64,000 nt of DNA from Temperatibacter marinus (lineage in GTDB: Bacteria; Pseudomonadota; Alphaproteobacteria; Sphingomonadales; Kordiimonadaceae): the NCBI RefSeq assembly GCF_031598375.1, contig NZ_CP123872.1, positions 2,538,501-2,602,500 on the forward strand, in the 5' to 3' direction. This document shows, piece after piece, positions 11,696 to 14,878 of this stretch; positions within the stretch are counted from its first letter, which is position 1, and each line of letters opens with the position of its first letter. The notes under the pieces are model-generated. The model searched no databases and was not told the origin of the DNA. It saw nothing but the letters and a program-made list of their open reading frames with translations. Both the position numbers and the translations under genes were made by a program.

Positions 11696-12452
11696 AAAAA
11701 GTTGGAGCAGCCGTCAAGGAAATGAGAGAACACGTGTTTCATCTCAAACAGAATCTAGTGCGCTTGGGGATACGAGAAGCCGTGCGCGCGGTGAGAATAA
11801 GGTACGTGTGAAGACAGCAAGGGGACGGACAACTTCATCTCAGCGATGGTTACAGCGTCAATTAAACGATCCCTATGTAGCTGAAGCAAACCGGCTAGGC
11901 TATCGCTCTCGCGCGGCTTTTAAATTGAAAGAAATCGATGATAAATATGATATTTTATCAGGGGCTCGCCGGATTGTAGACTTGGGTTGTGCTCCAGGAG
12001 GCTGGACACAGTATATATGTGAAAAGCTTGCCGGGAAGGCTCAGATTATTGGCATTGATTTACAAGAAGTTGAACCAATTCAAGGGGCAAAAATGTGGGT
12101 GAAGGATTTTATGGATCCAGATGCTGAACATGAACTTATGGCTGAGCTAGAAGGCCCCGCGGATGTTGTTCTTTCAGATATGGCAAATGCGAGTACAGGT
12201 CACAAGCAAACAGATCACTTGAAAACCATCGCGCTTGCCGAAGCAGCTCTTGATTTTGCAATAAAAGTTTTGGTGAAGGACGGTCATTTTGCAGCTAAAA
12301 TTCTACAAGGGGGGTCTGACAAGGTCGTCGTAGACAAACTTAATCAACATTTTCATAAGGTGAGGCATTTTAAACCCCCAAGCAGTCGTCAAGGATCCAC
12401 GGAATGGTTTGTTGTCGCTCAGGGGTTTAAGGGCAGGAAAGATCCAAAGTAG
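11688..12452 (+). CDS. rlmE: 23S rRNA (uridine-2552-2'-O)-methyltransferase
   Basis: Methylates the ribose of U2552 in the 23S A-loop, a late step in large-subunit assembly. 254 residues from ATG 11688, which overlaps the preceding stop by eight bases; the frame is open further up but inside ppx. After a ~45-residue basic extension come all family marks: YRSRAAFKLKEID (catalytic Lys), DLGCAPGGWTQ (SAM loop), VLSDMANAS (catalytic Asp), AKILQGG (second Lys) and GSTEWFVVAQGF (Glu), completing the K-D-K-E tetrad. Translation is probably coupled to ppx upstream and to the next gene, whose GTG overlaps its stop. Confidence 0.96.
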   Translation: MTKKSWSSRQGNERTRVSSQTESSALGDTRSRARGENKVRVKTARGRTTSSQRWLQRQLNDPYVAEANRLGYRSRAAFKLKEIDDKYDILSGARRIVDLGCAPGGWTQYICEKLAGKAQIIGIDLQEVEPIQGAKMWVKDFMDPDAEHELMAELEGPADVVLSDMANASTGHKQTDHLKTIALAEAALDFAIKVLVKDGHFAAKILQGGSDKVVVDKLNQHFHKVRHFKPPSSRQGSTEWFVVAQGFKGRKDPK

Positions 12453-13231
12453 TGAAGGCTTGTCTGAACAAGCAAAGCTATCTCCGTAATGGATACCTTC
12501 ACCTAAAAGGTTTTTTGGACAGTTCTGAGATTAAGCAGGTTTTGCCGCTTCTCATTACACATCACTCAAATTGGTGTGATGACAACAGAATATTTTATGA
12601 AGATAAAGCTATAAATAGCTATAATCTAACAGGTTTTGATTATCTTACCGAAAAAGAAAAAGACCGATTATTCTCTTTTATTTGTCAAGAAAAAGTGACT
12701 GCAATGGTACAAGAGCTTCTTGGTTATGAAGCTTATTTTCTGGGCACTCAATTATTCTTTGATCCTTATGATGAAAAACAAAACAATTATTGGCACCGTG
12801 ATATTCAATATGGTGAACTTTCTCTTCAAGATCAGAAAAGCATCCTGGGTGCATATAATCCCCTACATTTTAGATTTGCCATGCGAGATGAGAGAGGTAT
12901 CGAACTTGTTCCGGGTTCTCATACAAGGTGGGATACACCAGAAGAAATGAAAGTAAGATTAGAACAAGAAGGGCACCTTTCACATGAACCGTTAAAAACG
13001 GGCCAAGTCATAGAATTAAAAAGGGGTGATCTGCTTATATTTTCTGCATTTATGATCCATAGAGGCCTATACGGCGATGATCGTCTATCTCTTGATCTAC
13101 TCTATAGTGATTGGTCACCGGATGTGTCAAATTTTCTACAAAATAATTGCCTCCCCAAAAAAGCGAACCTTACGAAGTTTGAAGCCCCTGACATGCTGAT
13201 AAATAGCTATTCCCTGCAAGAGCAGAAATAA
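12452..13231 (+). CDS. Phytanoyl-CoA dioxygenase (PhyH)-like Fe(II)/2-oxoglutarate oxygenase
   Basis: 259 residues starting at GTG, which shares a base with the rlmE stop (TAGTG), so translation is almost surely coupled. The iron triad is visible: His and Asp in YWHRDIQYGE (about 112-116) and a distal His in FMIHRGLYGDDRLSLDLLY (about 200), with the following Arg placed to hold 2-oxoglutarate. ELVPGSHTRWDTPEEM (about 150-165) is a typical PhyH block. It should hydroxylate a small or lipid substrate; the substrate is unknown. Coupling to an rRNA methyltransferase hints at, but does not prove, a link to translation or RNA/protein hydroxylation. Confidence 0.82.
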   Translation: MKACLNKQSYLRNGYLHLKGFLDSSEIKQVLPLLITHHSNWCDDNRIFYEDKAINSYNLTGFDYLTEKEKDRLFSFICQEKVTAMVQELLGYEAYFLGTQLFFDPYDEKQNNYWHRDIQYGELSLQDQKSILGAYNPLHFRFAMRDERGIELVPGSHTRWDTPEEMKVRLEQEGHLSHEPLKTGQVIELKRGDLLIFSAFMIHRGLYGDDRLSLDLLYSDWSPDVSNFLQNNCLPKKANLTKFEAPDMLINSYSLQEQK

Positions 13232-13287
13232 ATTGGCTCTCATGATACTTTTCCATTGCCTTTAGTATAAGTTCAGAGTACATGAGG

Positions 13288-13405
13288 GCGAACATCTTTT
13301 CCCCGATTATTATCGGAAAGTGTTACCTATGCATGGGCATGGGGCCAGATTTCTGGTTAGGTTAAAGCGACTTATAAAGTCCCAACTACCGATAGGTGTT
13401 CGCAA
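13288..13405 (+). promoter_or_regulatory. Structured RNA leader of guaB sequestering the ribosome site
   Basis: Helix P1: GCGAACATCT (13288-13297) pairs over ten positions (one G-T) with AGGTGTTCGC (13394-13403), ending two bases before the guaB ATG, so the AGG ribosome site (13394-13396) lies inside the helix. Enclosed hairpins: P2 CCGAT/ATCGG (13303-13307/13312-13316, extendable by TTT/AAA across a two-C bulge); P3 ACCTA/TAGGT (13325-13329/13358-13362) containing CCAGA/TCTGG (13345-13356); P4 GACTT/AAGTC (13369-13373/13377-13381). A multi-way junction of this kind resembles a translational riboswitch or autoregulatory leader. It does not match the purine riboswitch core that I know. Confidence 0.55.
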
Positions 13406-14878
13406 ATGAATATACGACTTGGTCTTACTTTTGATGATGTTCTTCTTGTCCCTGCTGCTTCTGATGTGATGCCAGCTCAAGTGGATGTGAGAACACAACT
13501 TACTCAATCTATTCAATTAAATATTCCTCTTCTGTCTGCAGCCATGGATACTGTTACAGAAGCTAAAATGGCTATTGGTATGGCTCGTGATGGTGGTATC
13601 GGTGTTATTCACCGCAATATGACTGACGAAGAACAAGCGACAATGGTACGCCAAGTTAAAAAATATGAATCTGGTATGGTGGTTAATCCTGTAACGATGT
13701 ACCCAGACCAGACCTTGGCTGATGCTCTTGATTTAATGAAGCGCCATAAAATTTCAGGCATACCAGTGGTAGAACGAGTGGACGGAAATATACCGAGTAA
13801 GTTGGTCGGCATTGTAACACACAGAGATGTGAGATTTGCAAGCCAGATGGCGACACCCATATCAGAATTGATGACCCGCGATGTTATTACAGTCAAAGAA
13901 GGCGTTTCTTCTGAAGAAGCCAAAAAGCTTTTCCACACACATCGGATAGAAAAATTAATTGTTGTGAATGATAACTATCATTGTGTTGGCCTCGTCACTG
14001 TCAAAGATATGGAAAAAGCAGTTGCACATCCAAACGCTGCTAAAGATACGCAAGGTCGCTTAAGAGTAGCTGCCGCCTCGACAGTAGGGGACAAAGGCTA
14101 TGAGCGGGCACTTGCATTAATTGATGCGGAGGTCGATCTGCTCGTTTTAGACACAGCGCATGGACATTCAAGTCATGTTGTGTCTCAGGTTGAACGCATT
14201 AAGAAGGAATTTTCCCATGTACAAGTGGTGGCAGGTAATATAGCAACGGCTGCCGCCGCCGAAGCTCTTATTGGGGCTGGAGCTGATTGTCTCAAAGTCG
14301 GTATTGGCCCGGGATCTATCTGTACAACACGTGTTGTCGCTGGAGTGGGCGTTCCTCAATTAACAGCTGTTTCTGATGTTTCTGAAGTGGCCATTAAATC
14401 AAATATTCCTGTCATTGCGGATGGCGGCCTTCGTACATCGGGTGATATTGCTAAAGCTATGGCGGCTGGAGCGAGTGCTTGTATGGTTGGTTCGCTCCTA
14501 GCTGGTACAGAGGAAGCCCCTGGGGAAACATATTTATACCAAGGCCGCTCCTATAAAGCTTATCGCGGTATGGGCTCTGTTGGTGCCATGGCTCAAGGCT
14601 CTGCAGATCGATATTTCCAAGGCGAAATCAAAGATACACTCAAACTTGTGCCAGAAGGTATCGAAGGTCAAGTTCCTTACAAAGGGCCTGCTGGAACAAT
14701 GGTTCATCAACTTGTCGGTGGTCTTCGTGCTGGTATGGGCTATACGGGCTGCCAGACTATTCCTGAAATGTGGGAAAAAGCTGAATTCGTTCGCATCACA
14801 AACTCTGGGCTCAAAGAAAGCCATGTCCACGATGTGACCATCACACGGGAATCCCCTAACTATCCGGCGGGTAAATAA
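13406..14878 (+). CDS. guaB: Inosine-5'-monophosphate dehydrogenase
   Basis: Converts IMP to XMP with NAD, the committed step to GMP. 490 residues: start of the barrel ([17 protein letters not shown]), two CBS domains at about 95-205, then the catalytic half. The active-site loop GPGSICTTR puts the nucleophilic cysteine at residue 306. [18 protein letters not shown] and the flap [10 protein letters not shown] follow as expected. The CBS pair suggests allosteric control by purine nucleotides. The ATG 13406 comes immediately after the structured leader. An RNA methyltransferase gene begins one base after its stop. GuaA, the next enzyme in the pathway, is in the window at 36462 rather than adjacent. 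Confidence 0.98.

Follow-up and report, generated by a model that had tools for sequence, protein, structure and literature searches.

A candidate clasp between the mRNA 5′ end and the ribosome site of guaB in Temperatibacter marinus and other Pseudomonadota

Is the leader of guaB in Temperatibacter marinus a regulatory RNA and, if so, of what kind? IMP dehydrogenase, the guaB product, catalyzes the branch-point step in the synthesis of guanine nucleotides and is essential in many pathogens (PMC10912719). The window, the whole 64,000-nucleotide stretch of T. marinus DNA analyzed here, contains a guaB that matches TIGR01302 with 635.8 bits (cut-off 481.5) and shows 82% identity to its best named match, the guaB of a Kordiimonadaceae MAG. 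The initial annotation described its leader as a multi-branched structure closed by a ten-pair helix (P1) over the ribosome site, and proposed that a ligand or a protein controls translation there.

The leader and promoter of guaB in the window

The segment from 13280 to 13410 folds with a minimum free energy of −44.6 kcal/mol against −31.2 ± 3.9 kcal/mol for shuffled versions (z = −3.42; 0 of 200 shuffles equal it), and this minimum-energy fold contains P1 as first drawn (Table 1). The 3′ strand covers the ribosome site AGG (13394–13396) and ends two nucleotides before the ATG at 13406, again as proposed. Of the interior hairpins, the first and the last form where they had been placed, and the one claimed at 13325–13362 is replaced by two smaller hairpins. 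When a longer stretch is folded (13232–13450, z = −2.57), the promoter region pairs with the 5′ side and outcompetes P1; the competitor is an imperfect inverted repeat, GCTCTCATGATACT/AGTACATGAGGGC at 13236–13289, which spans the guaB −35 and −10 boxes.

Table 1. Coordinates of guaB and of the features predicted upstream of it in the window.
Feature	Position	Strand	Basis
−35-like box TTGCCT	13256..13261	+	aligned, at the same distance, with the TTG-like −35 of family leaders
−10-like box TACATG, 17 nt from −35	13279..13284	+	aligned with TATTGA of relatives
P1 5′ arm	13288..13297	+	minimum-energy fold and complementarity; GAACAUCU (13290–13297) if from the predicted start
Predicted transcription start G, 5 nt after the −10 box	13290..13290	+	top site, score 7.5, profile leaving the window leader (L002) out
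Interior hairpin 1	13303..13316	+	minimum-energy fold; sequence not conserved
Interior hairpin 2	13326..13343	+	minimum-energy fold
Interior hairpin 3	13344..13357	+	minimum-energy fold
Interior hairpin 4	13369..13381	+	minimum-energy fold
P1 3′ arm AGGUGUUCGC, with Shine-Dalgarno AGG	13394..13403	+	minimum-energy fold; eight-pair core 13394–13401
guaB, IMP dehydrogenase	13406..14878	+	TIGR01302 match

None of the 166 other 14-base segments in the 220 nt upstream of the ATG equals the 5′ arm in pairing with the start region, none of 500 shufflings of the arm's own letters matches its pairing (p = 0.002), and comparison of the leader interior and the coding start as partners gives p = 0.003. 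The start region as such is not unusually closed: opening it costs 9.3 kcal/mol, and 12 of the 48 ORFs of the window (guaB included) need at least that much.

A PhyH-family gene (phytanoyl-CoA dioxygenase-like, PF05721) occupies 12452–13231, between rlmE and guaB; in several relatives the sequence directly upstream of guaB resembles, by eye, the end of rlmE. An upstream ORF of 26 codons at 13329–13409, which overlaps the guaB start as ATGA, was considered and dropped, as it has no common counterpart among the ATG ORFs of 26 other leaders.

The boxes upstream of P1 align with those of the relatives. Across 27 family leaders one T of the −35 column is invariant, the other T and the G are each present in a fraction of 0.74, and the second position of the −10 box is A in 27/27. 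A generic σ70 scan detected no promoter at this site in the window. A promoter profile was trained on 27 motif-picked class loci and 13 family leaders. With the Kordiimonadaceae left out of training, the profile places +1 at the bracketed G of GGC[G]AAYAUC in 22 of the 27 family leaders; the window is not among them, its −10 box being weak and outside the top five sites, and 13290 becomes its top site only with relatives in training. A start downstream of 13297, which the initial annotation had raised as evidence against its helix, is not what the profile predicts.

The predicted start does fall inside the 5′ arm, leaving a clasp of eight pairs, GAACAUCU/AGGUGUUC (13290–13297 with 13394–13401), whose stability depends sharply on the first nucleotide. 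For an RNA reaching to 13460 at 37°C, the probability of P1 is about 0.99 from 13288, 0.56 from 13290 and 0.09 from 13291; for one ended at codon position +50 it is 0.30 from 13290 and 0.06 from 13291. In a temperature series bearing on a possible RNA thermometer, the predicted value from 13290 is 0.86 at 15–20°C and 0.56 at 37°C, and the Shine-Dalgarno remains mostly paired at all these temperatures. In the family, an RNA begun 3 nt upstream of the predicted G has P1 at a probability of at least 0.5 in 19 of the 27 leaders, and one begun at the G itself in 8 of them. PMC5730371 describes starts as lying mostly 7 bp after the −10 element, with starts more than 1 bp upstream of that being rare; the predicted G start of guaB lies 6 bp after it. 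The helix is predicted to sequester the Shine-Dalgarno and start, in dependence on the start site, and in most Kordiimonadaceae the modeled helix is weak if transcription begins where the promoter predicts. The position of the predicted start relative to the arm is the weakest link of the argument for a clasp.

Pairing partners of the 5′ element in the Kordiimonadaceae

guaB was found in 26 of 29 genomes of the family; with one locus added (L039) and one dropped (L040, a duplicate of L113), 27 leaders were compared, that of the window being L002. Their shared layout is the consensus TTGTNTTT...TATTGA followed by ACGGCGAAYATC or a variant, 66–136 nt before the ATG, with T at −31 and A at −7 in all 27. 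Conservation peaks on the stretch after the −10 box (13286–13296 in the window; mean 1.77 bits, against 1.48 for the −10).

The best match of this 5′ element within the start region is the ATG with codons 2–5 in 24 of the 27 leaders, and the bases just ahead of the ATG in L002 and L025; L024 has none there, its 5′ end being held in a long local hairpin (L024:2945–3059) that ends 47 nt before the ATG. The start-region match passes a shuffle test at p ≤ 0.01 in 22/27, while other upstream segments pair equally well or better in 15/27 (up to 88 of 166 segments), and a C·A mismatch interrupts the pairing in 18 of the 24 leaders that use the coding start. When leader interior and coding start are compared as partners, the stronger one lies at or next to the ATG in 25/27. 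In L002, L024 and L025 the coding start has lost its pairing, and each of these three leaders has a replacement partner for the 5′ end (p = 0.003, 0.007 and 0.027), and an interior partner with p < 0.05 is present in 8/27. Leaders that pair well in the interior tend to pair poorly with the coding start (Spearman −0.71, p = 0.0015, over 17 hand-drawn groups; −0.50 over 27 leaders), an effect that is not significant over the 24 leaders other than these three.

The initial annotation had suggested covariation among related leaders as a check of P1, and the outcome is split: compensatory change that keeps the helix is weak within the family and, as far as sequence comparison with kinship ignored can tell, present at the class level. 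Double changes affect 1 of 31 pairs in seven aligned family leaders and 2 of 8 predicted pairs in a whole-family alignment. An alignment fitted to a model (24 of 26 loci matched), which leans to that model, has double changes in 15 of 34 pairs, but just one of the ten P1 pairs and one of the four pairs of the anti-Shine-Dalgarno helix are among them. A covariance model built from seven leaders (R1) gave 15 matches at E ≤ 1 over 24 loci and misses the window leader because the 3′ arm differs there.

Codon 3 is ATT in 25/27 (13.7 expected) and codon 4 CGC in 22/27 (12.5 expected); by synonymous conservation among 367 codons, codons 2–5 rank 97, 11, 24 and 2, and two codons that the helix does not include, 8 and 12, come in at 6 and 5. 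The mean cost of opening the start region falls from 11.0 to 8.3 kcal/mol once the first 3 nt are removed. An unanchored complementarity test is too weak alone (mean z of −1.08 in the family and −0.15 in other families, 40 of 74 used). Searching DNA across the order with a consensus-like promoter query returned good matches at guaB of the family and weak ones elsewhere (best E = 5.6e−4). A pattern of 5′ element...ATG was found in 1 of 385 genomes of the class, the sole family member sampled being the window genome, which is unable to match it.

Seven of the family leaders (L003, L005, L009, L012, L013, L017 and L020) have a common hairpin with the loop CCCACATAAG (CCCACAAAAG in L009). Several of these also contain a stretch like GTGGATTTCGCC, similar to the guaB coding start, and in such leaders the 5′ end may have two partners.

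Complementarity across the class and in other Pseudomonadota

In guaB leaders of other families the same layout recurs in other letters, with G[CT]CAAC[CT]C after the −10 and GG[AG]GTTG[GA]C abutting the ATG. A usable guaB start was available for 210 of 211 loci (L048 was dropped). Of 143 other genomes with a match, all but the 14 lowest-ranked (129 in total) entered the class sample, which 7 loci from the order brought to 136; some families occur twice in it, and the statistics are uncorrected for relatedness. Where the last 12 nt before the ATG contain TTGG, the arm is GCCAAY in 14 loci, GTCAAY in 2 and neither in 4; where they contain TTGA, it is GTCAAY in 6 and GCCAAY in 1. Sites lacking TTGR are accompanied by GCCAAY in 22/109 and by GTCAAY in 0/109 (no promoter required). 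With kinship ignored, this C/T exchange between the arms gives a Fisher p of 0.0017, and TTGR sites co-occur with GYCAAY arms in 23/27 loci against 22/109 (p = 5e−10). A first count, whose search interval missed short leaders, had given 6/16 against 11/120 (p = 0.006); because the interval was widened once short leaders had been seen, the 136-locus count is partly after the fact. Both parts are present in 61 of the remaining 74 loci, which are Rhizobiales-heavy. Leaders range from 22–25 nt with 8-nt loops (L202, L187) to more than 100 nt (L077, L102).

At 119 class loci outside the training set, a promoter-anchored test compared how well the predicted mRNA pairs, through its first 10 nt, with its own ribosome site and with sites swapped between loci. 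At a promoter score of at least 6, own sites pair at −6.14 kcal/mol and swapped sites at −4.80 (z = −6.1, p = 5e−5, n = 83); the values are −6.61 and −5.07 for n = 69 (z = −6.5, p = 5e−5), and −5.82 and −4.82 if no score cut is applied (z = −5.5, p = 5e−5, n = 119). A signal of this kind could also arise from base composition or, in short leaders, from arm and site overlapping, so the test was redone with matched swaps. Swaps within G+C quintiles give z = −5.3 (n = 83), and G+C-matched swaps confined to leaders of at least 28 nt give −4.6 (n = 56), or −3.3 with no score cut (n = 86); shuffling the letters of the own arm gives −5.7.

Control ORFs around guaB, spurious ones included, show no comparable own-site preference (z = −1.6, −0.2 and +0.9 for n = 313, 155 and 63; G+C-matched, +0.4 for n = 155 and +0.1 for n = 664), although 664 of them tested against shuffled arms give z = −2.8. 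For purA, with a match in 70 of 78 genomes (L281–L350), z is −2.3 with no cut and −1.4 at a score of at least 6 (n = 25), and this unmatched signal vanishes on G+C matching (z = −0.5, n = 25; z = −1.1, n = 60). Subsamples of 45 guaB loci range from −3.4 to −5.0.

The signal is clear on average, but most individual loci lack a long perfect stem: uninterrupted stems starting in the first three bases reach at least 6 pairs in 15 of 83 loci (8.1 swapped, p = 0.006) and at least 7 pairs in 6 (3.9 swapped, p = 0.18), counts that accept any loop length, so that some of these stems could not form as hairpins. Examples whose letters are unrelated between loci are GUCAUUCC/GGGAUGAC (L241), GCAAUUCC/GGAGUUGC (L214), GCCAUC/GAUGGC (L258) and GAACCU/AGGUUC (L173). 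A table of fixed-register pairs over 28 loci is mildly positive (Watson-Crick pairs against expectation: +3/−3, 18 vs 12.9; +7/−7, 13 vs 8.2; +4/−4, 7 vs 6.2). An unanchored stem search of the 210 leaders yielded 52 with at least 9 pairs against 32 for shuffled leaders, and 15 against 14 with at least 10 pairs. A MAFFT alignment of 50 short leaders was too poor in quality for pair counting.

Beyond the class, the test was applied to 40 of 83 guaB regions from non-alphaproteobacteria, with one or two taken from each family, and own sites again pair better than swapped ones (z = −3.7, p = 2e−4; at a score of at least 6, z = −4.1, G+C-matched −3.0, n = 27). The clasp is apparently present in Escherichia coli too. 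The K-12 guaB leader, ...TATAATGCCGC[GGCAATATTT]...AGATATTGCCC-ATG, can form 10 contiguous pairs, GGCAAUAUUU/AGAUAUUGCC, in a hairpin of −14.1 kcal/mol (z = −4.1; equaled by 0 of 200 shuffles), and a profile trained on alphaproteobacterial promoters only picks exactly the start at which this clasp begins, giving a leader of 38 nt. Folding of L359:300–365, a stretch that excludes the 5′ arm, shows no excess structure (z = +1.4).

Candidate mechanisms and known systems

With the fold in the window, its position and a class-wide complementarity with compensatory change in hand from computation, we favor, at a probability of roughly 0.6, a widespread clasp of the mRNA 5′ end with the ribosome site that brakes guaB translation. 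In this reading the 5′-terminal arm of the guaB mRNA would pair with the message's own start codon or with bases next to it; a clasp of about 6–10 pairs, around a loop of either about 8 nt or more than 100 nt with hairpins of its own, would shut the Shine-Dalgarno and start region and probably hold guaB translation low in cells until it is opened. Because the first nucleotides are paired, the 5′ end would probably be shielded from decay enzymes too. The regulated step would be the opening, which competing ribosomes, a protein (GuaB itself, for instance) or a shift in the start site may bring about; as the Bateman domain of IMPDH is said to associate with nucleic acids (PMC3517587), autoregulation by GuaB is a candidate worth testing.

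That a helix with the appearance of selection lies over the ribosome site of a purine gene makes translational control probable, and to that extent the initial proposal of control by a ligand or protein stands; its metabolite-riboswitch form is unsupported. An aptamer between the P1 arms could draw on the multi-branched interior of the window fold and on guaB being a purine gene, and we consider it very improbable. Rfam has no match in the window (nothing relevant even at E ≤ 10), none above the gathering score in 14 related loci, where one sub-threshold sRNA match was the only result, and none in the E. coli guaB leader; the purine riboswitch core had been noted as absent at the outset, and the relatives share no core. 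The interior differs in length (leaders of 66–136 nt in the family; 19–44 nt in 50 short leaders of other families) and also varies in sequence within the family, so no common aptamer core is seen, and a riboswitch core between the arms was discarded. The conserved feature is the position of the helix, not its interior. BjrC68, a Bradyrhizobiaceae sRNA family, gives 22.2 bits (gathering score 39) on the minus strand of L111:1314–1414, over the guaB upstream region.

The same helix might mainly bury the first nucleotides against decay (pyrophosphate removal, RNase E), the ribosome site being merely a convenient partner in a short leader. We think this unlikely: although the arm starts at the predicted +1 in the clearest cases, L024 uses its local hairpin, and family leaders with weak coding-start pairing pair more strongly elsewhere, the stronger partner is nearly always at or next to the ATG, and in some leaders it lies more than 100 nt away across several hairpins where a local hairpin would suffice. 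Since long leaders bridge such distances to reach the ATG, the ribosome site, and not only the 5′ end, appears to be the target. Alternatively, 13286–13296 might act as DNA, as a promoter discriminator and initially transcribed sequence (for example in stringent control), with its match to the ribosome site a coincidence or a result of shared ancestry. The stretch directly follows the conserved −10, is G+C-rich and holds the conservation peak, the predicted start cuts into the arm, and the synonymous conservation of codons 3–5 is equaled at codons 8 and 12 outside the helix. This reading is nonetheless doubtful, because it leads one to expect neither own-over-swapped complementarity nor the C-G/U-A exchange across families, and the distance between the arms can be as short as about 8 nt or exceed 100 nt. 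A regulon sharing the promoter element was sought in four genomes and given up, because the promoter-plus-element pattern, with two mismatches allowed, showed no clear excess over a reversed control (pattern/control counts of 317/276 for the window genome and of 234/243, 367/421 and 375/472 for the others).

More improbable still is a GTP sensor working by choice of start site, in which ample GTP would favor a start at G and a closed clasp, and low GTP a start at the next base, A, and an open one. The drop in P1 probability in the window from G13290 to A13291 is what it predicts, as is the behavior of 8 of 27 family members (at least 0.5 from G, at most 0.21 from the next base), and the dependence of start choice on −10 distance and initiating-substrate concentration is described as established generally (PMC5730371). 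Yet leaders of the GYCAAY type would probably lose only one pair per one-base shift, and a start at G itself already leaves P1 below 0.5 in 19 of 27 family members. It is comparably hard to credit that a guaB clasp of the Pseudomonadota, E. coli included, has the initiating G as its first paired base, so that start nucleotide and 5′-end state set GuaB translation; if true, it would amount to a guanine feedback loop lacking aptamer and repressor.

If the favored clasp is real, the opening nucleotides of the mRNA encode translational control of guaB throughout much of a phylum with no Rfam family, in an element defined by position (+1 to ATG) rather than sequence and therefore missed by motif searches; it would be directly testable in E. 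coli K-12. A fold-back kept with changed letters in relatives suggests an old, simple brake on guaB synthesis. Hairpins at ribosome sites are familiar as such, and Rfam, as far as tested, contains no guaB clasp that is defined by its position and spans the phylum. Among the literature matches listed (open-licence only), no alphaproteobacterial guaB leader is described, and older literature may possibly already mention the E. coli guaB hairpin.

Several known systems resemble parts of this picture. Purine (guanine/adenine) riboswitches also reside in leaders of purine genes, unlike the guaB leader in having an Rfam family and a shared core. The mRNAs of hok-type toxins fold back on themselves. 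In them, as in guaB, the ribosome site is sequestered within the mRNA, and guaB differs in being a metabolic gene whose partner sequence abuts the ATG. Hairpins that sequester the Shine-Dalgarno in toxin mRNAs are described in PMC6733600. The autogenous operators of ribosomal protein S15, as described in PMC4137082, likewise control their own gene through leader structure, with varied structures doing one job across bacteria. Unlike these operators, whose protein ligand is known, the guaB helix is anchored on the mRNA 5′ end. In the pyrC leader of enteric bacteria, the mRNA 5′ end pairs with the Shine-Dalgarno. guaB differs in serving the GTP pathway, in the long loops that are possible and in a partner that can lie in the coding start; start-site switching is a feature of pyrC, whereas for guaB its consequence for the fold alone has been computed. 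Common to both is an mRNA 5′ end that pairs with the Shine-Dalgarno of a nucleotide-synthesis gene.
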